Positions 8,525 to 62,083 of a stretch of DNA of 64,000 nucleotides are shown one piece after another. Each line of letters starts with the position of its first letter. The first letter of the stretch is position 1. Under the pieces are notes generated by a model that was given only the letters and a program-made list of their open reading frames with translations, was not told the origin of the DNA and searched no databases. The stretch is from Hyaloraphidium curvatum (lineage: Eukaryota; Monoblepharomycota; Hyaloraphidiomycetes; Hyaloraphidiales; Hyaloraphidiaceae), in NCBI GenBank assembly GCA_025558095.1, contig JAIVFI010000006.1, positions 496,001 to 560,000 of the forward strand, written 5' to 3'. The position numbers and the translations under genes were made by a program.

Positions 8525-11500
8525 TCAATTCCCCTTCTCCTTCGTCGCCGCACTGGTATCTGGCGGAGAAGGGCCGACCACGGCATCGGCGACCTCGGCC
8601 GGGCCGTCGATTCGCCGCACAGTCCGCCTGGAGACGGGCCCGTCACCCTGCGAGCTCCCGCTCCGAGGCATCACGAATTCGAAAGCACCCGAAGGAACGC
8701 CGTTGACAGGTGTGCGGGCACCGTCGGGTTCGCGAGGTCCGCCACCGATTCTGTCCAGGATCTTCTGGAGCTCCGCCTGGAGCGCCTCCTGGCTCGTCGT
8801 CCTTTCGCGGCGCGGGCGTGGCCGGCGGCCAGCAAACGCCACGTGGCACGCCGAATCGCCAAAGTCGAAGCAGAAGCCGCATGTTTCGTCGTTGGCGTCC
8901 GTAACGGGCAAAACCGTCCTCACAGTGAGAACCGGTGGCGCGCCGGCGAGCATGGAGTCCAAATCCTCGGATTCCTTCTTTCGGTCACTGGCCGAACGCA
9001 CCGTCTCTGCGGTCTCGTCCCTCACAACGAGCTCTCCGGAATCGTGGGCACCGTCGGCGTCGATGCGGCAACCCAGGCCCCGCAGGCGGTCAGGGGCAGC
9101 ATAGACCGACTTTGCGATCGGCACTTTGAGCGCCCCGCGGCCCAGGCTGTCGACCGAGCTCCCCGCACCCGGACCGGTGACGTCCACGCCCCAAGCCTCC
9201 CAGACCCACACACCGCTGGAAACGGGAGGCGAAGCATCCTCGCGGCGGAATAGGTCGTAGAAGGACGAAGTTCTGGGGGCGTCGGTGGCCAGCGAGACCC
9301 TCCTCCTGCGAAGCCCCACGATCATCCCGAGATCAGGCAATCCAGCGATGGCCGAACATCCGAGCTGATCCATGGAGCCGAAAAGTACCGCTCGCGCGAC
9401 TAGCGTTTCCGGAGATGGTGTCTCGAACGTTGCCATAGGCACGTCTGCCGGTGGTGTTTCTGCTACCGGCGAGGCGTTCATCGCCAACGGCGGCCGCTGG
9501 AGCATCATCGGCGTTATGTTGACAAGCGGAGAAGGCACCGAGGGCGCCGTGATCCGCCGATGGTGGGTGGCGACCTTGATCGGCGCCAGGGGAGGCGTCG
9601 CGGAGCGGTGGCTCCACGGGCCCGCCGCCTTGAAAAGCAGCGGATCGTCCGGCTCCGTCGCCCGCGACGAGGAGCGCGACGACTCGCGCCGCCTCGACGG
9701 TGCGCGCTCGATCGACACCCGCCAAAAGACGCAGCTGTTGTCCGCCTGCCTCCGCGCGAGCACGACCGCAGTCTCGCGTTCCTCCAACGGCACAGCAGCC
9801 ATGCGAGGCGCCCTGGAAAATCCACCCTGCCCCGACTGCTGCGGCTCGATCGTGCAGAGCACGTAAGGTTCGGATGCCCCAGAGGTATCCCAGAGCCGAA
9901 TCGTCCCATCCTCGTACAGCACCGCCACAAGGAGCGCGCTGGACGGCCGCGAGATCGAAAGGCATTCGACCTGGAGCACCGATTTGAGACCTGCGCCCCA
10001 TCCGGACGCCCGCCGCGGCACCCGATCTTGCGCAGACACGCCCGTCAGGTACCGCTCCAGAGCGCCGTCTGCAAATCCGACGACCAAGCATCCTGCCTCC
10101 TTGCTGTATGCTGCGGCCGTCACCTTCCCCGATCCTCTGGGCGGCACCGACCCTGCAGCGACCAGCGCATCCCCGCTGCGTTCCCAGACCGCCACCTCCC
10201 CGCCGGCCGACACCGACAGCAGCTCCACCGCCCCGGCCCCGGCCGGTAGAATCTCCAGGTGCACGATCGGCTCCGCCCGTTCCACTGGCCCGGACACCCA
10301 CTGCTCCCCGACTTCCCCGTCCGCACCGAGTGCGACCAGCCACACCCTCCCGTCCGCCCTCCCCAGCGCCAGATGGTCGCCCTCCCCCGACGCACGCACG
10401 CACGTCACGTCCACCGCGCTCTGCAGCGCCGTCCCCTCCCCGACGCAGACCGTGCGGCGGTCCTTGGACCTGACGAAGGGCAGTCCGGCGGGGGTGGGAG
10501 AACCCGAGAGGAGGCAGACGTCCCCGAGGAGGTCGTGCTCCGTGTCGGTCAGCCCAGGCAGGCGGCACGCGACCTGCGTGACGATCCAAGGGCGGTCCAG
10601 GACCTCGCGCGCGGGCGCAGGGCCGGCGGCGCGGGGCTGCTCGGATTCCCACCCGCCCGGCCCGCAGACGGTCGCCTGTTCCGCTGCCTGTTTCGCCGCG
10701 AGAGGGCTTTTGGCAGCGTCGGCGCGCGGGCGGAGCCAATCCATGCCCGCCGAAAGCACGCCGAAGCCCCAGGCGGAGGTGAGCCACCGGTGGAGCAGAT
10801 TGGTCCAGCAGACAAAGATGAAGGTCAGGCAGAGCAGCGCCGCGACGATCGGCAGGGTGGTCCTCGCCGCGCGCGGAAAGCGTCTCCCCCTTGGCGCCGC
10901 TGACTCGGCGGCGAGCTCCGCGCCCCGCTGCTGTGCCCGCCGCAAAGCCTCGTCGAACCCCGGGATCGCGTCCGCCGCCGGCGGCTCCCCGGAAAACGTG
11001 AGCGTTTCGGTCCACTCGATCGCGCGGTAGCCGTGTAGGAAAGGGTGCAGGCGCTCGCCCAGGGGCTCGAGGACAGCGTCGATCGCCTCGTGCGAGTAGG
11101 CCGCGCCGTCGCCGGCGCCGTAGGGCGAAAAGACCGACATGGCCGGGCGGTAGGAGTTCTTGGCGAGGAGGTCGACAAAGAGGAAGCCCCCGAAGAGGGC
11201 GAGGAACACGATCTGTGGGCACAACACACCGTCTGAGTACGACCACGGCCTGCTCAGCGGAAGGACGCGCCCACCAGCACGTATCGCATGACCGTCGTCC
11301 TCTGCTGGAAGCTCTTTGCCGCCACCTTTTCCCTGGCCAGCTTGGCGTTGACTTCGGCCGCCTTGACCTGCGCCTCGCTAGGGGCCCGCTTGACCCCCAC
11401 GTGCGGCGGCCCCGCGGGCGCCTGCAGGTCCGCGGCCGAGCTCTGCCGGATGATCTCGGCCACGCGGCGGTGCGACAGGTCCGCGAGCTCGAGGCGGCGC

Positions 11501-12742
11501 ACGTCGATGGAGAGGACGGTGACGAAGAAGGTGATCTGCAGGAAAAAGTCGACGACGACAGCGACCGACGCAAAGAGGCTGAACTCCTGCAGAGCGGGGA
11601 CCGAGGTCGCGGTGCCGAGGAGGAAGAGGAAGAGCTCGCCGAAGAGCGCGACGAGGATGGGCACGCCGACCTTGCCCAGCCCTGGCACGACCGCGGTGAG
11701 CGGGGACCATCAGCGGGCCACGGTCGGGCCACCCACCCCTGCCCACGCGCTCCGGCACGGGCACGTCGATCGACGTCGTGGTGATGCCGTTGGTGATGAC
11801 AAAGATGTTCTCCACCCCCACGGCGATGATGAGGAACGGCAGCACCTCCCACTGCACCAGGCCGATCGGCACCCCCGCCACGTCCAGGATGCCCATGGAC
11901 ATGGTGAGCGAGCCCAGGACGGTGGCGAGCGCCGCGATGCCGAGGCCGAACTTGGACTTTACCAGCTCCACGCGGCCCAGGGAGAGGGAGATGTACAGGA
12001 AGACGGTGAGGTAGGCGAGCACGATGAGGAGGTGGTTGGTGGAGAGGGGTGCCGAGGGCAGGGAGAGGGCTGCGCGGGGTTCGATGCGCGGGGGGCGACC
12101 CGGCGTGGGAGGGGGAGGGTCCCATGCCAGGGTTGCGTTTGCGGGGAAGGCCGAGGCGTTGGCGAGGGACGCCAGGACGCGCGCCCAGGTCGCGGCGCCG
12201 TCCCCGCGGCCGTCGACAAACAGCGTGGCGGAGAGGAAGACGGGCGTGGCGGCTGCGGGCGGTGCTTCCAGGCCTGCGGCGAGGTACGGCGCTGGCGAGA
12301 GCGCGAGGCACGCGCCGCCGGGCCCATCGGGGCGGAAGCACAGGTCGGCGAAGGCTGCGCCCGAGTCCGGGTCGGCGGCGGCGCCCCATGCCGCGTCCAG
12401 GGCGAGCGCCGCGCGGAGGCGCCTGTCCGGGGAACCGCCCCCGGAGTCGCCCCACGCGACGCGGGTGACCAGCGCGGCCCCGCCGGCCCCCCTCCCCGCC
12501 GGCGCGCCGCCCGCGAACGGCAGCGCGCCGCGCACGGCGGTCCGCAGCCGCGGCGCCGCGTCGGTGCCGAGCAGCGCGTCGGCCGCCGCAAAGTACGCCG
12601 GCAGCGAGAGCCCGACGATGAGCGCGCCCGTCAGCGCAATGACCGCCACGCGGTGCGACGCAGCAAACACGCCGTGGTAGTAGAACACGCGGCCGGCGAG
12701 CTGCTCGGCGCCGCGGACCGCGGAGCGCAGGGCGGACGCCAT
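8525..12742 (-). CDS. SCAP: SREBP cleavage-activating protein (SCAP): sterol-sensing domain plus WD40
   Basis: SCAP escorts SREBP from ER to Golgi when sterols are low. Exons 12742-11737, 11681-11275 and 11212-8525 give 1366 residues. The order is an N-terminal membrane segment, a lumenal loop (about 60-225), a polytopic sterol-sensing domain (about 230-400), a cytosolic loop, a second membrane block with a lumenal insertion, then degenerate WD40 repeats to the C-terminus. The match to SCAP is close in [20 protein letters not shown] and [25 protein letters not shown] (residues 399-404) corresponds to the MELADL COPII signal of mammalian SCAP. The INSIG-contact YIYF motif is not conserved and reads LYIS at that place. 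HMG-CoA reductase, another sterol-sensing protein, lies 46 kb away. No SREBP gene is seen in the window. Confidence 0.92.
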
Positions 12743-12872: not shown

Positions 12873-13649
12873 CTACTCGCCGTGCTTGAGCACGCGCACG
12901 AAATCGCGGTAGTTGAAGTTGCCGTGCGCGTCCAGCTGCGCCCCCTTGAGCATCGTGTCGACCTGCCGACCACGGCAAGGCAAGGACGTCAGAAAGTGTC
13001 CTTGGCACGGGCCCGACGTCGCACCTCATCGTCCGTGAACCTGTCCCCCATGGTCGTCATCCACTCCCTGAACTGCTCGCCGTCCAGCACCCCCGATTTC
13101 TTGTCGTCGAACGCCTCGAACGCCTGCAGGATCTCGTGCTCGGGGTCCGTGCCGCTCATCTTTTCGCCGAGCAGCGTGAGGAAGAGGGTGAAGTTGATGG
13201 GGCCGGGCGCCTCGGAGAGCATCGACTGGACCTGCTCCTCGGACGGCGGTTGGCCTGCCCGCAGGGGGGAAACGACGGGTGCGCGAGGAGGCGGGCAATC
13301 AGGACCAACAATCCGGTTGGGGCCCAGGGTCAGATGGGCACGGTGCCGGCCCGAAAGCGACCCACCCAGGGAGGAAAAGATCTCCTTGAGGTCCTCGGCG
13401 TCGATGAACCCGTCGTTGTCGTGGTCGATCATCGAGAACGCCTCCTTGAACTCGGCGATCTGCTTCTGGTCGAACATGGCGAACACGTTCGAGTTCTGGC
13501 GCACGGCGCGCTTCTTCTTTGTGTCGCGCTTTGCGCGCTGCGACTGCGGGCCGGGCGGGGGGTCGGTGCGGTTCCGGGCCGGGGGGCGGGGGCCGGCAGC
13601 CTCCGTGCGAGCCGGGGGGAGGCCGGCCGGCCGGGCGGCTGCTCACCAT
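12873..13649 (-). CDS. Myosin II regulatory light chain (phosphorylatable)
   Basis: This light chain binds the neck of non-muscle myosin II and controls its ATPase by phosphorylation. Exons 13649-13647 (the ATG alone), 13543-13366, 13254-13025 and 12962-12873 give 166 residues. The N-terminus [19 protein letters not shown] matches the metazoan basic leader in length. Ser19 aligns with the main MLCK/ROCK site of human light chain, and Thr18 is replaced by Asn. Then come [20 protein letters not shown], a first EF-hand with an intact loop ([12 protein letters not shown]), and degenerate later EF-hands around MSEAPGP-type sequence and [12 protein letters not shown]. The start was chosen because only splicing of ATG onto the TCG CAG exon restores the conserved leader. 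Introns are 103, 111 and 62 nt. Confidence 0.9.
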
Positions 13650-26272: not shown

Positions 26273-27735
26273 CTAAATTCGGGGCCCCGGGCCCCGCCGG
26301 CCGCCCCCGGCCGAGCACTGCGCGAGTCCCGGGATGCCAGCTTCTGCCTCGTCCAGATCCGGAGCCTGCGACCACCGCGTGAAGCCAGCTCGCAGAAGCC
26401 TTGCGGAGCTTCGGTAGAGGCTCCGGGACACGAAGGGCGAGGTCTTGGCGGCCACCTTCTCGCAAAGATCGGCCTTGAACAAACGTGCTTCCTCTACAAG
26501 GGGGTCGTTGCCAGGCGCCAGAGCAACGAGGTCGACCACGTGCAGCGCGAGCTGGTCTTTCCCGCTCGCTGCAAGCTCCCTGGCTCTTGCGAGGACCTTC
26601 GCGGGATCGATCGCGCCAAAGATGGCGGCCGCCGCCTCATCCGGATGCGCAGGGTGGAGATCCGTTGGGTTGCGCGACATCCACCATCCTGAGTGTTCTC
26701 TTACGACATCGCGAACGACGTAATCCGGATCGCCGTAGTCGGCTGTCAGGTACTTTTCCTGGGCATGGGGAATGGGTCGGGGGAGGTCATGAATGATCTC
26801 GACGTCCGTGAGCCCTTTGGCCATCCTATCGAGAGTTTCTTTCCAAAGCCACTCGAGCGCTTCGACGGTCTTGGTCAAGCGGTCCCTGATCTTGTCCTTG
26901 CCGACCACCACAGGCCCGAACTCTGGGATCAGAATCTCGGCATCCAGCGCAAGGAGGCCGCGCAGCGTCTGGGCCCATCTAAGCGTGTACCTTTGCGTAC
27001 GAAGTGGCGTGCCAATGTTCGGAAATCCACTGATGACAGCGGCTCCGCTACAAAGACCAGCAATGAACAAGGTCAGAGAAGCTGCCATTGAAGCTGAATC
27101 CCCAGCACGCACCCGTAGAGCACCCTTTGCTTTGGCAAGAAAACAGTCACCGCGTCGTCCGTCTCGGACGGTCCCCACATGATGTCGATCGGCCTCACGG
27201 GGTCTTCGATCGTCAGCCTGTCGTCGACAAGCGTCGTCGGAGCGTGGCTCCTCATTGCCTGAGCGCCCTGCTCCACCGGCCACCCGAACTGGTGCTGGTT
27301 GAAAATGATCTCGAGCCCGAGGTTGCGGCGGTACCGTTCCTGACGCGCGAGGATATTCCTGTGGGCGATGGTCTCGGGGGGCGCCTCGCCGCGGGAAGCA
27401 TTGTGCGCCACCCATTCCGGGACGCCAGCGTTGTAGCCTGTTGAACAGGAGGGTGAGACTGCATCTTAAGGAGGAGGGCAACTCGTCCCACCGTTGTGCC
27501 CGTGAGAGAAGATTAGAGCGCGCAGCCTCGACCCCGTGAGCGTCCGGAGGGAATCGATCATCCTCCGCGTGACGGGGCCGCCCGGGCCGGCATCGATGAG
27601 CACCACCCCGCCGGCGGTCTCGAAGGCCACGCCGTTGCCCTGCCCCCCGAACAGGTACACCCCATCGGCGATTGTCTGGGGCGAAATCTTCGCGTACAGC
27701 ATGTTCTGGGCCTCGCGCTTGGCCTTGTCGCTCAT
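26273..27735 (-). CDS. Metallo-beta-lactamase-fold protein with alkylsulfatase-type C-terminus, metal ligands lost
   Basis: Exons 27735-27492, 27437-27113 and 27047-26273 give 447 residues. The N-terminal half follows an MBL-fold family: VVLIDAGPGG, then LIFSHGHNGYNAG, IAHRNILARQERYRRNLGLE, and a dimerisation-domain C-half (SGWWMSRNPTDLHPA) as in alkyl sulfatases. The usual zinc motif HxHxDH reads HGHNGY. The later GD and GHG ligands read YGGAA and EFGPVV. With only the first two His kept, zinc chemistry is unlikely, so this may be a pseudo-enzyme. The splice choice does not explain the loss: no alternative site in the 54-nt intron restores Asp-His. A longer N-terminus from an upstream in-frame ATG (near 27855) is possible. 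Introns are 54 and 65 nt. Confidence 0.75.
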
Positions 27736-27961
27736 TGTGCGCGGAATGCGGGGGTTTCGGACGGGCGGAAGGGAGAGCAGAGCCTGCTTTTTGCGTCGGG
27801 GGTTTGTTGGGGGGGGGGGAGAAAGAGCGGGAGACAGTGGGGTCGTTGGATGCATTGAATCGCTTCGTGCATTCATCCCATCATGCTAGACATAGTGATT
27901 GCGCAACCTGCGCAAGCTAATGCGTGCGTCCAAGTATCTCCGTGCAAACAGCAATGAAACG

Positions 27962-39684: not shown

Positions 39685-42600
39685 TCACCGGTCCTGCCGC
39701 GTTGCGGCGTCGCTTGTGTAGATGGCGACGTGGTCGTCAACGCCGGCCGCGAGCACCAGCCTGTGCGGGTGGTACGCCAAAGGCCTCCCCGCAGGCACTT
39801 GCGAGCGCGTATCTAGCTCGATGTTGCCAAGGACGTCGCCGGAAGGATTCATCGTCACCACGTGATCGGAGGAACTCCAGCTGCGGAGGGTGAATCAGCT
39901 TGGTGCCTCGCAATATCTCGACCTGCTTACCACGATATCAGGCCCGCCCGGTCGTGCACTGCCATGGCAACCATCTCGCCGTCGCTGGACACGTTGTAGG
40001 TCTTTGACGGTTTGCTGTACCGCAGGTCCCACAGCTTAACTTCACCGGAGGCGCTGGGCAATGCATGTTAGAACTTCATTGCTAGCATTGAAGCTCATAG
40101 AGGCCTCACCTGCCGCTGATGAGCTCCTGCGTGCCGGCTCGCTGCAAGAAAACACCCGTGACAGGAGACCCGTTCGACAACGAGCCGACCATGCTGCCAA
40201 ATGCCATTGACTTAAAAAAGCCCCCGTGAGATTCTGCCTATCCCACCTTTCTTTGGCAGCAAGGCGCCTGTCGTAGATCCGGATGTGCCCATCTGTGCAT
40301 CCTGCCACTATGAGCGCGGTCGCGTTCCGGTCGCTGCTCAGGCTAGAGACGGATGCGAGTGTCCGCGTCGGGATGTCCTGCACACAGAGCTCCTTTTCCG
40401 CATCCCAGACCCTGACGGTGCGGACGTCACCGGAGATCAAGAACGACCCCGACGACTGCTGCCATTCGAGGACGAGTCCTTTGTTGTGGTTGCCCGGCAC
40501 CACATCCGTAAGCGATCTCCAGGCCGTCAGCAATTCGACCTTATCCGGAGACTCGTAGTTTCGGTAGATCCTGAGGACGCCGTCGTCTGGTGCACACTCC
40601 GTCAGTCGGTGGAACGCCACCCGAACCGGCTGCCACGCACCGGATCCAACGGCCAGCAGGCCCACGTCATCTTCGTTGATGAGACGCAAAGCAGTCGGCC
40701 GGCTTCCGAGCGGATTTTGGTTGAGGAAAACGTTGAGCTTGGATCCGAGCACCCAGTCCCAAACGCTTCGGCGCTGCGTGAGCGACTGGACAACAGGGCG
40801 GTGAAGCAGCTTACGTGATAACATCGCGATCGCTGGCAGCGATCAAATGAGGCTCATACGAGTGAAACGCGACAGTCTGGACACTCTTTTGGCCCGTCGC
40901 GAGTGTCCTCGTCCGCTCCTCCAGCTTGCGAGTGGCGGCCAAGGGTTGGAGCCGCTGCGCTTGCGCGACGAGTTTCTCGTTCCTTTGATGTCGCCACTGC
41001 TTCTCGATGTAGCGCACGCTGCCGGGATCGTCGACCTCGGGCACCTGTTCCCAGACCCGTCAAGAAAGCACCCGCGCCATCTGACCGCAACGCACCTTCA
41101 TCTGCGGCTCAGCGAAGTACTCGCAGCACCACTCGAAAAAGACAGACTGGATTGGGGAAGGGTTGGCTTTCCAGGTCCGCGCGAGCTCCTCCAGCCCAGG
41201 TCGCCGACGCGCCTCGTAACCCGCGACCGCGGGCACGACCGGCTCAAGATTCCGGCGGGGTGCAAAACGGGACACGAAAGGTGCAGACTCTTTCCCGGCA
41301 TCCCCATCCACGGGCCTCTGTCCGTTAGCCATGCCCAGGCCAAGCTCTGGCGCAGACTGCGCCCCCGATAGTTGCTGCGGTGGCTTTGCGACGGAACCAC
41401 CAAGAGGGGTGCGTTTCTCCACATCCGCCAAAGTCACTTTGACGGATACCGCTGAGGCCTGGGAAGCCGCCGAGTACTTGTCCAAAATGGTTGGCAAGAG
41501 GTAACTGTAGGTGATTTGATCCACAAGCTCGGTTGCGAGAGTCGCGATCTCTGGATGCGGGTCCACCGCGAGGTTCAAGAGCACCTTCCAAAGGCAACCG
41601 TAGACCGAAAGCTGGCCATTGGAAGCTTGGTATAGGCCATCGGGAATACTTGACGCTCCCTTGGGCCTCGCGTCCTCGGCAGCAACCTGTTGCCGTTTGC
41701 GTTCCTCCTCCACGAGCTCGGCCGCAGCGGCGACGAAGCGGCTCGCGTTGAGGGCGACCAGCTTGGAAATGGTCGTGAGAAACTCGCGCCGGACCAGCGG
41801 GCTGGCATCCGTGGTGGCCACCAGCATGGCCAGCGCAACATTCTGCTCGATGGAGAGCACCTGGTCGGACTTGTCGAGGTCCCCGAAAAAGGTGCCAAGG
41901 GCCAGCATGGCGCCGGCCCGGACTTCCGGCACGATGTCCTGCAGCATGGCGCTGAGCTTTTCGTGCACAGACTCCTTCACCGCCAGCCACTTGGCCTCCG
42001 GAAACCTGCTCCACAGCTCCGCCATGCAGATTGCGGCCCATTGCCGCAGCAGCGGATCCGGGTCCGCGAGGTGCTGGGCGCAGGACGCGAGCAGGTTTGC
42101 CTTCAAGCACGCCTGCTGGCCCTGGCGAAAGTCGTGGCAAAACACCGACAGTATGAAGCAGCACATTGCCCTGTGTTCCGAGATGTTGGGTATAGGGGGC
42201 ATGTTGGCGTTGGAAGCCAGGATGTTGACAAAGTAGAGGAAGCCGTTGTCCTTGAGCAGGTCATTTTGGCACGACGAGTCCACGGCAAGGATCTTTGCCC
42301 AAATGAAGACCAGGACGGGCTTCAGCTCCGCCGCGGGACTCTGTAGGAGCTTCAGCACATAGGGAAAGATGCCCACCGACAGCGCCAGGTTGACTGCCCA
42401 GGGGCCCAGATCCAAGAATCTGCTCAGCAGCATGAGGGCCCTCAGCCTGTGCACCTGGCTGAGGAGAACCTGGAGCACAATCGGCAGCTGCTCCGGCGGT
42501 TTCCTCGAGATTGCCCCGCGCGCCAACCAGACTTCGAAAGCCGTCAGCTGCTCCGCAAAGAAGGAGCTGTGGCGGTATTCGACGGCCTTGGTCTGACCGT

Positions 42601-44086
42601 TGCCTGAACCGGCAGGTGCGCCAGATCCTGGTGCCCCGTTCGCCACGGGGACAACCCCAGCACCAACCCCCGGGTTCATCAAAGACAGGCTCATCGTCGA
42701 AGCGGACGTGTTAGCTATCGGGGGAAGGCTGGTGTTGGCCGCAACGGCCCCTGCGCCCTGTGCTGCGCCGGCAGCGGCCGTCCCGCCGGTGGCCAGCGGC
42801 GAGACAGGATCAATGAGCACAGGGCCGGCGTTCTCCTCCCCCGCGAGAAGGCCGGGCAGCTGTGCCAGGACCATATCGGCCGCGAGATCCCAAGCCTGCC
42901 ACAGAGGATGCTGGTGGGTCGGGGGAAGTTCCGGGTACGAGAGTGGCGTGCAGTTGTAGGACCTCATGATCCGCTCCGCCAGGAGAAAGTTCCGAAACAA
43001 CGCGGCCACCATAAGATCCTGGCGGAAGAGCTTTTTGAACAGGTCGTGCGGGAGCACGTTCCACGCGATTGTGTCCGTGATGGCAGTGAAGATCCAGTTG
43101 AGCTCCCCCAGAGGCGTCCGGCGGTCATTCAAACGCCCCGGGATCTTCATGATCATGTCCGACGTCACGTTCGTGAGCAGCGAATTCTGCGTCACGAACC
43201 ATCGGAGGGCGATTTCGATCGGCGTCGTCAGGCAGCAGGTGAAGATGTCAGCGGGCAAATCGGGGTTCATGGGGAGGGTCTCGGTCGGTCCGCACGCGGC
43301 GAGCTGGATGCATTCCCGAAAAGGAACGTAGGGAGACGGCATGGTCGCCCCTGGGGCCGTCCCCGCCGCCGCTGCGGCCGGATCAGGCGAGGCAGGCGGG
43401 TCACTCGGCCCCAGCGCCTGACCCCCCGTCTGCCGCAGGGCCTCGGCATCCCTCTGCTCCGCAAAGCGATTGAACGACAGCAGGATGTTGCCGGCGTTCG
43501 AGCAGTCGTAGACAAAAATGCACGGCGACCCGAGCCACGTCTGGATGTCGTAGATGGACACGGGGATATACTGGGTGTAGTTCTTGTTGAAGACCCAAAT
43601 CTCGCCGCCGGGAGTGGGGCGCGGCACGCCGTGCCCGTTGTAGTGGAAGAGGATGCGCTCCTCCTTGGCGTTGCGCCGCAGGGAGAAGCACAGCTTCTTG
43701 GTCTCCTCGACCGACGGGTCCAGCGACAGCTTGTAGCGCGCCCGCGGCTGCCACACCTCGTACTGCTGCTGCAGGTTGCGGCCGATGTTCTCCAGCGCCT
43801 TCTGCGGCGGCATGGAGAAGGGGTCGACCCACGCCTCCAGCTTCGCGGCCGGGTTGGTCTTGACGAGGTCCGGCGGGTCGATGCCGATGTTCAGGCACAG
43901 CACCAGGGCGACCGACACGGTCTTCAGGCGCTGCGTCATCTTCCAGTCCGTGGCGGGATGCTTCGCGGGATGGTCGCCGTCGGGCCTGCCGCCGGTCTCG
44001 TGGCGCCTCTCCGTGAAGAACGCCATCGCCGGGCCGGCCGCCGCCGCCGCCGCCGATTGCAAGCCGGCCTGAAGCACGTCTGGCAT
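39685..44086 (-). CDS. RPTOR: Raptor / KOG1, regulatory subunit of TOR complex 1
   Basis: Raptor presents substrates to TORC1. Exons 44086-41096, 41044-40815, 40765-40641, 40586-40247, 40193-40110, 40053-39931 and 39880-39685 give 1362 residues. The raptor N-terminal conserved domain is caspase-like and keeps the dyad: His152 in HYNGHG and Cys195 in VYDCSNAG. It continues with LPADIFTCCLTTPIEIALRW and RTPLGELNWIFTAITDTIAW. HEAT repeats fill the middle. The WD40 propeller is encoded by the last six exons and includes TVWDW, SDDGVLRIYRNY, VRVWDAEKELCVQDIPT and IRIYDRR. Almost all introns sit in the 3' quarter. Intron 40587-40640 (54 nt) has no in-frame stop. Rapamycin-pathway control is expected from the family. 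Confidence 0.95.
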
Positions 44087-44224
44087 TGCGGCGGGGCCCG
44101 CGACGCGACGTCCGCGCCTCGCAGGGGACCGTGCGGCCGGCTATCGGAACTGATCGATCGGGAGGCGGCCGCCCGCGAACCGCAGCCAAAGTCGAGGACA
44201 CGCGCACCGCCGCCGAGGCGCTGC

Positions 44225-45792: not shown

Positions 45793-48198
45793 TCAACCGA
45801 GGTTCAAGTGTTTTTTGATCGCCTCGATCAGATCCGCCTTTTTCCCCCTTGCCTTGACGTTGTTCTTCTTGAGCCACTCTTGCAGGATAGGAATTGTGCC
45901 CTTCTCGAGCTGGCGAACACCGCCTGTTAGCGACCGACGTTCGTCCGTGCCCGACGTCCTCGTACCTTGCCTGCCCTCGCGAAGATCTCCACGTCATCCA
46001 CGCTCTCGAGCTTGTCCGAGCCGCCACGTTTCTTGGGTGCCGGTTCCTCCCCCTCGGCAACCCCGCCGCCCTCTCCGCCCTCGGGCCGCGAGCGCTTCTT
46101 GGATGCAGGGACGTTGTGCAGCGGCACGCGGACCTCGCTCGCCGGCAAGCTCTGCACAGCTTCCGTGATGTGCTCGTTGAACTCGGGCAGCATGTCCTTG
46201 GTCTTGTCGAGGAGGACCTTGTTTTTGGGCAGCGTGGTGTCTTCCATTTCTTCGGGCTCATCGTGGTTCAGCGCCAGGGCCGCAAGGTTGCTGTGGAAGC
46301 GATCAAGAGCTGTGCGACGTGCACGCATCAGAATGCTGGTTTGGCCCGTCTTCAGTTGGCACCCACCAGGGTTGGTGAAAGCTTCCGGATCAAACTCCTT
46401 CATCCGCACCCCCTTGACCATTCGCTTCGCAGTTTCGACTGCTTCGGCGGGTGCTGGCATAGCGACTAAGGATCGTCCCCATCGACGGTCGCGCAAACCC
46501 GCCCACCTCGCAACTCGGTTGAGCCAGGTACGTGGCGGATGTCGTCGGCAAAAGGAAGGGGGATCAGGTGCAGGCCAGTGTAGCGGACAGTGTCCGAGGA
46601 AGCCTTGTCGGCATCCTCGATTTCCGGCCACAAGGCCACCAGCCTCGGCGGGCTGTTCTTGCGGGGAATGAAGCGGCAAATGGCCACCTTGTCCAGCGCG
46701 TTCATCCTCCTCAGCAGGGTGCCGAAGATGGCGCAGCTGCCCGTGTAGCTCTGAGCGTCGGCGTGCATCAGCCCCGAAGCGCCGGGACCAACGACCGTGC
46801 CAGGGCACCCACGGTCTCGTCGGGATACAAGAAGGTCGAGTGCTTGATGGTGTGGTGTAGCTTAACGGCGCTCTTTGGCTTGAAGCCGAGCAGGTGCAGG
46901 CCGGGTTCCCCAAAGCTGCGCATCTCTTTGACCTCGTCCTTGGTGAAGAACACGTTCTCGCCGCCATACGGGTAGTAGTACTTGATCTCCCGGGGCTGCA
47001 GCGGCTCCGCCGTGTCCCGGCACACGAGCACCTGCTTGGACTTGACCACGTCGTTGCCGCTGGCGCGCATGTACACGAAGCTGGGCTTCTTCTGCTCGAC
47101 GACGAGGTTGTAGCCGCGCACGCCAATGGTGAAGCCACTTCCAAGCACGAATGGGATGCGCATGTACGACCGCTTCCGCATTTCCTTCTTCCGCACGGCG
47201 TTGCGGAGGTCCTCGAACTTTTCCGACGCCGATTCGACCACGATCTCGTCCTCGTCAGCGTCGACCTCGCGGAAGGTCACGTCCACCCAGAAGCGCTTAA
47301 AGTCGAACTGGGCGCCTTGCGTGTTGACGGGAAACAAGTCGAGGCTGGCTCCAAAGGCCTCAAGGTCCCTCGCTCTCTTCATGATGGCCTTCTTGTTCCT
47401 GGGATCCGTTTCCGGGTTGTCATTGTCCGTCACAAACATCGACCGCTTCTCCGTGCCCTTGACGTTCCTGCCGGTTGTTGAGACCCAACAGCCAGGCCGA
47501 GCATGCTGCGGTCCCACTTTTGAAAGCGCTCTGCCAGAGCGTGGAAAAGCTCCGTCAAGGGGGCACCCTTTATGCCGAACTTCCGCTCGAAGAACTCGTG
47601 ACCCCCTGCGGAAAGCGACGCCTCGTTTAGGGAGCTGGGTGACGGCGACCGAACGGCTGCCCACCCCTCTCGATTTCGTCGGCCAGAGCCTCCACCTCCT
47701 TGACGCGCTCGCTGTCCGGAGAATCCGGTCCCATGAATTCGTATAAGCCTTGGTGCGTAACGCCGCCGACGGACCGGCTCTCGCGCTGGGTCGGAGCACG
47801 CCCCCTTTCAGCGAGGACGAGGCCACCCCGCGGCAGAACCCACGGTTCCAAAGAGGATAAGACCGGCGAGATCGCGAGGCGACCGCATGAGCTTGGCCTG
47901 CAGCACGTCGGAGAAGCACCTCAACGCCATGACCACGGGGATGTCCCCCTCATCGTTGATGGGCTGGAACATGGTCTCCGAGCTGCAGTCGATGACAAAC
48001 AGCAGCAGATCCTGTCGGCAGCCCGTCGTCAGGCCGCGAAGCGCCGGCATCGCGGCCGCGCCGTGCCTTCTTGTCGGTCCACATCTCGGCCTCCTCGGTT
48101 TCGTCCTCCTCATCATCGTCCTCCGGCGCCCCCTCGCCGCCCTCGCGCGCCGCATCGCCGTCGACCTCCGAGCGCTGGCTCCATATGTAATGGGACAT
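45793..48198 (-). CDS. XRCC6: Ku70 (XRCC6), DNA end-binding subunit for non-homologous end joining
   Basis: Ku70 pairs with Ku80 on broken DNA ends. Nine exons (48198-48067, 48011-47844, 47785-47665, 47605-47518, 47467-46813, 46750-46507, 46453-46367, 46309-45966, 45909-45793) give 651 residues. The von Willebrand-like domain starts LLLFVIDCSSETMF and includes KRSMFVTDNDNP. The beta-barrel core has EMRSFGEPGLHLLGFKP and LHLIPLPFADD. The C-terminus holds a SAP domain, GTIPILQEWLKKNNVKARGKKADLIEAI, here cited in two pieces: GTIPILQEWLKKNNVK and ARGKKADLIEAIKKHL. The first intron is GC-AG. The acceptor of intron 46454-46506 is ambiguous with one 12 bases upstream, both in frame. It is divergent from UBE2S with a 113-bp gap. 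Confidence 0.93.
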
Positions 48199-58390: not shown

Positions 58391-58417
58391 CGATCTACAT
58401 TACAAGCTGTAGTATTA

Positions 58418-61400
58418 TCACTTCGGGGCATGGGGTGTGTGTCTGTTTAGCGCCATGTGGCTCTTGACCAAATGGCCCGCCGCGAGTGCAGAGCAGAGGC
58501 TGAGTTCACCGGCCATCACGGTGGCCGCAATGATGCGTGCCAGCTGCGCGGCATTCGCCCCCGGCCGTTCCGGGTGCGGTCCTCGTACGCCGAGCAGCTC
58601 CAAGCAAGACGCCTGCGGCGGCAACACCGTGCCCCCGCCAACCGTCCCCACCTCGATGCAGGGCATCGAGCACGAAACATGAAGATCTTGGCCGTCATTG
58701 ACAGCCTCCATCAGGGTAATGCACTGAGAAGACTCCACGTTCTGTGCCGGGTCCTGACCCGTAGCAAGATACACGGCCGTGAGAATGCTGCAAAGCGTTC
58801 AGTTGTCGACACTAAGTGACCCGCAAACGAACCACTCACTTTGCCGCGTGAGCGTTGAATCCACCGATGCTCCCCGCCATGGCGGAACCGATCAGGTTCT
58901 TGCTCGTATTGAGCTTGACGAGATCCTCCACTGTCGTCTTGAGCACGGTGCGCACGACGTCACCGGGGATAACGGCTTCTGCAACGACCGACTTTCCACG
59001 GCCTTCAATCCAGCTGCGAAAAGCGTTAGCTCCTCAGAGACGCGCCACCTCTCGCTTTGCTCACTTGATCGCGGCGGGCTTCTTGTCGGTGCAGTAGTTG
59101 CCGCTCAGCGCAACAACGCGAAGCTCCGGAAACTGGCGTTCAAGCTCCGCCAACGCCTTCTCGCAGCCTTTCGAGATCATGTTCATGCCCATAGCGTCGC
59201 CGGTTGTGGTGACGAATCGGATGAAAAGGAGCTTGCCGCCGTTCGCCATCTTGAGCTTCCTCAGCCGAGCGAAGCGGCTCGTCGACTCGAACTCGAGTTT
59301 GATGGTGGCGAAGCCTTCGTCCGATTCCAGCCAGGCCCTGCAGGCACCGGCTTGGACAGCGCTCGGGAACTCGACAACAGGTCCCCTGCTCATGCCGTCG
59401 GCAGTCAGCACGACCCGGGCGCCGCCTCCCGCGTTTATGGCCTTGCAGCCGCGCGAAGTCGATGCGATGAGCGCCCCTTCCGTGGTGGCCATGGGCACCT
59501 GGTAGCTCTGGTCGTTGATGATGAAAGGCCCGGCAACGCCGACGGGAATCGGCACGTAACCGACGACGTTCTCGCAGCACTGCCCGTGCACCTTGGTGTA
59601 GTCGTAGTGTTCCACGGGAAGCGCAGGAGACTCGGCGCCGTGCCCGTCCAGCACGTTGTCCTTGCCCACGGAGCGGCTGATGACGATGCGACGCACCTTG
59701 ACCGCGCGCGTGAGATCCCCCAGAAGCTTTTCCAGAGCGTAACCCTGGACGTGTCCCTTCTCAACCAACACGGCCAGCTCCGCGTTGCTCAGTTCTACGG
59801 GACCCGAGACTTTGAAGATCTGCAGGCACTCTTCCCAAGGGCGAATCGAATGCAGAGATTGCTTGCGCTCGGCTCTTGGCGGCGACCGCACGAGCGCGGC
59901 TTCTCCGAAAGACGCCCGCCTCTCGGTAACGGTGCTCAGCCTACGGCGTGCCGGCGAACCGACCGGCGACGGCGGGGCATGCGAGCGCTCGCCAAGGTCG
60001 GCCGCAGGCCGGGTGATGGGCGTCGCGGGTCCCTCGATGGCAGCCACCTTGGCCGCAAGCTTTTCCTCGATCGTCGGGCTCTCCTCCTCTTGGGTTTCCG
60101 CAGCGGCACTGCCCGCGGGGAAGCCGAGGGAGCGAGAGCGCGCAAAGGCGTAGATTGCACCGACGGAAAGGACAGCCATCACCAGGTTGCCCCAGGTCAG
60201 CGTCTCGGACGGTCCAGCGGAAGAATGTAGCTCCACGACGTCCAGTTGGATCTCGGGAGCAACGAGAAGCACGGTTCCTGGGGCCGCAAAGGTACGGATC
60301 TGGTCCAGCACCGCAGCGGCGATTGCGTTGGCCCCGGCTGCTTGTGCGGCGCCGACGTGAGTGCGATTCGACTGGCCAACGGCCCTTGACGATATGCTGG
60401 ACGAGTTCATGGCGTGATAGGCGAGGAACAAGAAGATCTGTGGGGCGGCGAACTTCAGAACATGCCCCCGACCGGCGCCGCACGTCCGTGCGCACCATGT
60501 ACAGCTTGATCTTGCCGATCAGAGGGTGTTCCGCAGCCTTGTGAAGGCTAAAGCCGTTAAAGCCGAGCACGGCTCGGGCCTCTTCCGCGGGGCGGACTTC
60601 GCTGGCCTGCGCCTGGCTCTCCCTGGACCGAATGAGCTCCAGCTTGAGGGTGACCATGGCGGTGTAGAGGGTGAAGAGGAAGACGGCGTCGAAGTAGAGG
60701 GTGAGGCTCGCGATGATGCAGAAGTTCTTCATCCCGGCCACCCCGCTGAAGGCACCCAACCCCATGACGGCGATCTCGACGGCGTAATTCGTGATGAGCG
60801 TGGGCGCAACGGCGCGCACGCCGCCCAGGACCTTGTCCCGCACCGACGGGGTGCCGGACCGCTGGTGCGTGAAGATGGCCCTGGTCAGCTGGTACGGCTT
60901 CTCGAAACCGACGGCCACGACGAAGAATGGCGTCGCTTCGCTGATGCGCAAGGGTCAGCTCTGCAAAATGCGCGAGGAATGAGCTCACGGACCTCAGTTG
61001 GGTGAAAGCAACCGCGATGCCCAGCAGCTTGCCCACCACCAGGGCGGCCAGGAAGGCGAGGAAGCTGCTGCAGATGACGGCGCATCCCAGCGTGAACTTG
61101 GACCCCAGGCGGCGCATGTTGAGGAACAACGACGCCATGGTTGCATGCATGAGCACGTATCCGACGGCGACGACGAGGATGTCGGCATTGCGGGCACGCT
61201 GTCGTGGTGGGTGTGAGACCGCGAGCCGCCGGTGCGGCGCGACGCAGCAACACGCACGTTCCAGGCGTCGCGCAGCTCGTAAACGCCGCCGAGCAGCGTC
61301 CGCGGTTTCCCCTCGTCCGCGGATCCCGCAGCGCTTGCCTCGGCGGGCGGAGGCCTGGGCTTGGCCTGTATGCGCACTCCGTCCGCTTCTGCCGACACCG

Positions 61401-61911
61401 TGCCCAGCGCATCGACCCACGCCTGCGCCCGCAGGGCGTCGCGGGGCGCTGACACGTCCAGGAGATACGCCAGCGAGCCGTTTGCGGCCGGGCCGGGCAA
61501 TGCGCAGTCCGAGGCGTGCGAACGCCAGCACAGGTCGCTGTAGACGGCGCGATCGCCGCCCAGCAGCGGTGCGGCCGCGGCGACCGATCGCACGGCGGCC
61601 TCGGCGGCGCCGGCGCGGGCGGCCCCCGGCAGCCGCACGGGCACGAGCAGCATCGCCGGCGCCGCGTTCCCCGCGGGCGCCCACCCGCCGGCCGCCGCCG
61701 CGAGCGCCGTCCACGCGCCGCCGCCCGCGGCCGCATCGCCCGCACCCGGCGAGTTCCAGTGCGCGAGCGCGCCGTACAGCGACGCCGCGAGCACGAGGCA
61801 CCCCGCAATCGTCGCCACCGGGTGCCGCGCCGTCCTCGCGAGCACCGGGTCGACGAGCCGCTGCGCAAACTGCGCCGCGGGCGACGTCGCACTGCGCGTC
61901 GACGGCGTCAT
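58418..61911 (-). CDS. HMGCR: HMG-CoA reductase with sterol-sensing-type membrane domain
   Basis: This ER enzyme makes mevalonate, the controlled step of sterol synthesis. Exons 61911-61258, 61198-60993, 60940-60496, 60437-59065, 59013-58840 and 58787-58418 give 1073 residues. The membrane half has a lumenal loop and a sterol-sensing-like block ([20 protein letters not shown] to [19 protein letters not shown]). A variable linker follows, then the catalytic domain: [21 protein letters not shown] (catalytic Glu), [28 protein letters not shown] (Lys) and [13 protein letters not shown] (Asp). Near the end is [15 protein letters not shown] with catalytic His1061. Human Ser872, the AMPK site six residues on, is His1067 here. 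The Tyr-Ile-Tyr-Phe INSIG motif is not seen. Its stop is 27 bp from the MED12 stop. Confidence 0.94.
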
Positions 61912-62083
61912 GGTGGGAAACACGGGCGGGAAAGCAAGGACGGTAATTTCCCTTGCCACGCTGATCCGGCCGGGTCGACCCACTTCAAACCAGCCCAAAA
62001 CACCAGCCCATTTCCGAGGCGGTACATGGAGCCACAACGCTCGGATTCTGGCCCGACGGGCTTTACATTCTAGCGCAACCGAA

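Follow-up and report, generated by a model that had tools for sequence, protein, structure and literature searches.

Descriptions of SCAP–SREBP systems in mammals and fungi provide the closest comparisons for the gene reported here. In mammalian SCAP, the segment Met447–Leu452 has been reported as the COPII binding site (PMC9233655). Binding of INSIG is abolished by mutating Y298, L315 or D443 of SCAP (PMC7472741) and locked by mutation of D428 (PMC12773782), and E359 has been reported as a contact of INSIG-2 (PMC9314443). Among fungi, Cryptococcus neoformans is listed in a review table as having SREBP, SCAP and S2P, with INSIG, S1P and DUF2014 absent (PMC8549280). In Schizosaccharomyces pombe, Scp1 is reported to need no Insig for either the retention or the release of Sre1, and a putative COPII motif has been reported in Scp of Komagataella phaffii (both PMC12926077).

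We analyzed a window of 64 kb (the whole stretch of DNA under study, C6:496001-560000 of a GC-rich, 31.9 Mb assembly with short introns) and found on its minus strand a three-exon gene (12742-8525; ATG at 12742, stop at 8525) whose 1366-residue product is, judged by homology, a true SCAP. Exon 1 (11737..12742) encodes TM1, lumenal loop 1 and TM2–TM4, the first part of the sterol-sensing domain (PF12349, 1.2e-20; phmmer to SCAP, 1.3e-18), and exon 2 (11275..11681) encodes TM5–TM6 and loop 6 with the sorting signal (PF12349, 5.9e-22; phmmer to SCAP, 3.8e-17). Exon 3 (8525..11212), assigned from the gene model and hydropathy, encodes TM7, lumenal loop 7, TM8 and a C-terminal domain that runs to the stop codon. 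Both introns are GT-AG, the first of 55 bases (11682..11736, GTGGGT...CCAG) and the second of 62 (11213..11274, GTGGGC...ACAG), and with intron 1 spliced out the joined exons again align with human SCAP without gaps. When exons 1 and 2 were used as queries against solved structures, SCAP chains outranked those of NPC1, Patched and HMG-CoA reductase (HMGCR); together with the Pfam sterol-sensing domain, these phmmer matches bear out the identification of the gene as SCAP in the original prediction. In the predicted topology, eight hydrophobic segments fall at the places of the eight spans of SCAP, and lumenal loops 1 and 7 are large. The long C-terminal domain is probably a WD40 propeller, as suggested by weak WD40 matches (3.5e-4, under the Pfam cut-off); a single-sequence fold model of exon 3 had a mean pLDDT of 38.8, too poor for a structure search, and a PDB search with this exon gave no matches.

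Several other genes lie on the minus strand of the window. Directly upstream of SCAP, an EF-hand protein resembling a myosin regulatory light chain (12989-13642) was identified by reading the sequence; farther away are genes for an alkyl sulfatase dimerisation domain (26276-27880), the N-terminal domain and HEAT repeats of the TOR complex 1 subunit Raptor (41063-44140) and a Ku70/80 C-terminal arm (45930-47276). An HMGCR gene with its own sterol-sensing domain (58400-62000) lies about 47 kb from SCAP, and two more HMGCR loci are present on C28 and C19. A PDB search with an HMGCR membrane exon gave no matches.

The sorting signal of SCAP is present in its aligned place. LELADL (residues 399-404; 11476..11493, minus strand) stands opposite MELADL (447-452) of human SCAP in an ungapped phmmer alignment, as the original prediction had proposed, and our gene model reproduces its numbering exactly, with the hexapeptide inside residues 397-408. 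These twelve residues align gap-free with human VLSIDIRRMELADLNKR. The hexapeptide lies between VLSIDVRR and SHRR and is identical to the human one at five of six positions, the sole change being the conservative M447L, and the flank follows the pattern SIDxRR. From TM5 to loop 6, 42 of 79 residues are identical to human SCAP, with no gap around the motif (phmmer, E 4e-17 for exon 2). A chance resemblance of the motif in an unrelated protein can be dismissed with near certainty, given strong SCAP homology over 176 aligned residues around and including it. When all six reading frames of the window are scanned, the pattern xELADL turns up a single time, where shuffled sequences lead one to expect 0.08 occurrences; it arises in 0.5% of shuffles of the SCAP protein itself.

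We considered whether LELADL could instead be kept for the helix structure between TM6 and loop 6 of sterol-sensing proteins, rather than for COPII binding. Alignments of NPC1, NPC1L1 and Patched do reach into the hexapeptide (residues 73-78 of the exon query), so that its first part is partly common to this class of proteins; however, they stop at query residues 74-77, whereas the SCAP alignments alone complete the hexapeptide and extend to residues 86-88. Since the NPC1 and Patched matches end before the last residue of the hexapeptide, the complete signal looks SCAP-specific at the level of sequence. The hexapeptide is, moreover, where COPII binding has been mapped in the mammalian protein (PMC9233655), and we regard a purely structural role as improbable.

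The original prediction had also held that the YIYF motif is not kept and that INSIG control may differ or be absent. In the alignment to human SCAP, the position of YIYF (298-301) is occupied by YISL (residues 250-253; 11984..11995, minus strand), so that the claim is correct for Tyr300 and Phe301, which are lost, but not for Tyr298 and Ile299, which are both retained. Across TM2–TM4, 37 of 97 residues are identical to human SCAP, and the INSIG-binding surface is largely preserved: L315, E359, D428 and D443 are identical, F417 and E347 are retained, and different hydrophobic residues stand in for I348, Y351, I402, I403 and I414. Because Tyr298, L315, D428, D443 and E359 are all kept, concluding from the changed motif that INSIG has been lost is insecure on its own, and the altered YIYF would by itself be weak evidence against INSIG control. 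The part of the claim that finds support is the one that concerns the genome, in which no INSIG was found.

Searches of the genome for INSIG, SREBP, S1P and S2P had been proposed along with these claims. They were run exon by exon, on an assembly in which gaps may hide genes, and the queries for INSIG-2, S1P, EF-1alpha and the SREBP-1 tail were approximate sequences that may contain small errors. For INSIG, neither the Pfam profile nor a mammalian INSIG-2 query returned a single candidate, in searches that had no positive control. The direct evidence is the genome searched in this way, and the absence of INSIG from it is tentative: with the INSIG-contact residues of SCAP largely retained, a diverged INSIG could have been missed. 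An animal-like pathway with an INSIG that escaped detection through high divergence, splitting by introns or an assembly gap would fit the retention of Tyr298, L315, E347, E359, F417, D428 and D443, as if the INSIG surface were under selection, and would be compatible with empty searches that lacked a control. We nevertheless consider it unlikely. The same tool found SCAP, HMGCR and S2P, which are likewise split membrane proteins, and half of YIYF is gone from SCAP. In the HMGCR of the window, too, what we take to be the YIYF position, aligned with an approximate human sequence, appears to read TMAS. In our preferred reading, INSIG is probably missing from this pathway.

An SREBP gene is present on C16. 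Of eight bHLH loci in the genome, this one reads SHNEIEKRYR, where the residue that is usually arginine is the tyrosine diagnostic of SREBP (SHNEIEKRYRENIN), and the best solved relatives of its bHLH domain are Hms1, Tye7 and SREBP-1A. After a 53-base intron, the gene continues with two predicted membrane spans separated by a 55-residue lumenal loop and a tail of about 380 residues, so the search for an SREBP homologue ended in a Tyr-type bHLH protein with a predicted membrane anchor. The predicted lumenal loop contains no RxxL, the S1P site of animal SREBP. Compared with an approximate human SREBP-1 tail, the C16 tail scored 46 against a mean of 42 for shuffles, which is not a significant similarity, and no DUF2014 was found anywhere in the genome search. 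Since the tail has neither significant similarity to SREBP-1 nor DUF2014, we can only infer that this SREBP pairs with SCAP. A second Tyr-type bHLH (L003 1471-1728, MEKEYRK) was set aside as a candidate SREBP, having no predicted membrane span.

The proteases gave a divided result: S2P was found and S1P was not recognised. The S2P gene on C9 has an M50 match, and its translated exons contain HEAGH and NMIPAYRLDG, corresponding to the HExxH and NxxPxxxLDG motifs; a PDB search with the S2P exon gave no matches. Fifteen subtilase matches were found in the genome by exon-by-exon searches, none of them S1P-like. The best, at C16:456406-457229, was rejected as S1P for its proteinase K-like layout and its short, weak match. 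The COPII coat is represented by Sec23, recognised by reading the translation, and by two Sec24 genes (L046 and L047), whose closest relatives are Sec24A/B in one case and Sec24C/D in the other.

These genes suggest a pathway in which SCAP most likely binds the membrane-anchored SREBP of C16 and, at low sterol, escorts it out of the ER to the Golgi. The end of the helix after TM6, LELADL, would be recognised as a cargo signal by a Sec24 of the COPII coat. Once SREBP is in the Golgi, S2P would probably release the bHLH factor, the first cut of SREBP being probably either absent or made by something other than S1P. Retention at high sterol would probably be achieved by SCAP itself without INSIG, by analogy with Scp1 of fission yeast. 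For this reading as a whole, namely a true SCAP, LELADL-dependent COPII export of the C16 SREBP, release by S2P and INSIG-free retention, we estimate a probability of roughly 80%. If INSIG is indeed missing, SCAP may keep nearly all of the INSIG-binding residues because they drive a sterol switch of its own, by which LELADL is hidden or exposed, with INSIG a later addition to a sensor that works alone; this is a tentative idea, and we would sooner bet against it than for it.

Set beside the vertebrate protein, this SCAP has the same eight predicted spans, the sterol-sensing domain, a MELADL-type signal in place and Tyr298, L315, E359, D428 and D443, but differs in M447L and in YISL for YIYF, and neither INSIG nor S1P was found in its genome. 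The gene set is the same as that of Sre1–Scp1–Stp1 in C. neoformans, a likeness in which genes are present and which were not found. With S. pombe it has in common the SCAP–SREBP pair and, probably, INSIG-independent retention; S. pombe differs in being without S2P, in using the Dsc complex and Rbd2, and in an Sre1 that has DUF2014. K. phaffii Scp is a SCAP homologue from a fungus for which a putative motif for interaction with COPII has been reported, and activation in that species requires the Dsc E3 complex.

An ancient origin of SCAP export from the ER, as the original prediction had it, is plausible from these sequences, because EF-1alpha of this genome carries a fungal-like variant of the opisthokont insertion (KAGEVTGKTLLQAIDAIE); its identity is about the same to human (81%) and to yeast EF-1alpha (82%), measured with approximate query sequences, so that the organism is probably an early fungus or a near relative of one. 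What stands out is a nearly intact vertebrate-type COPII signal in SCAP, although searches of the genome recovered neither INSIG nor S1P. SREBP, SCAP and S2P without INSIG, S1P or DUF2014 have already been published for Cryptococcus, and the present, well-supported case extends this picture known from fungi rather than changing it. The organism may thereby be a helpful natural case for asking if INSIG is required for the signal to be exposed under sterol control.
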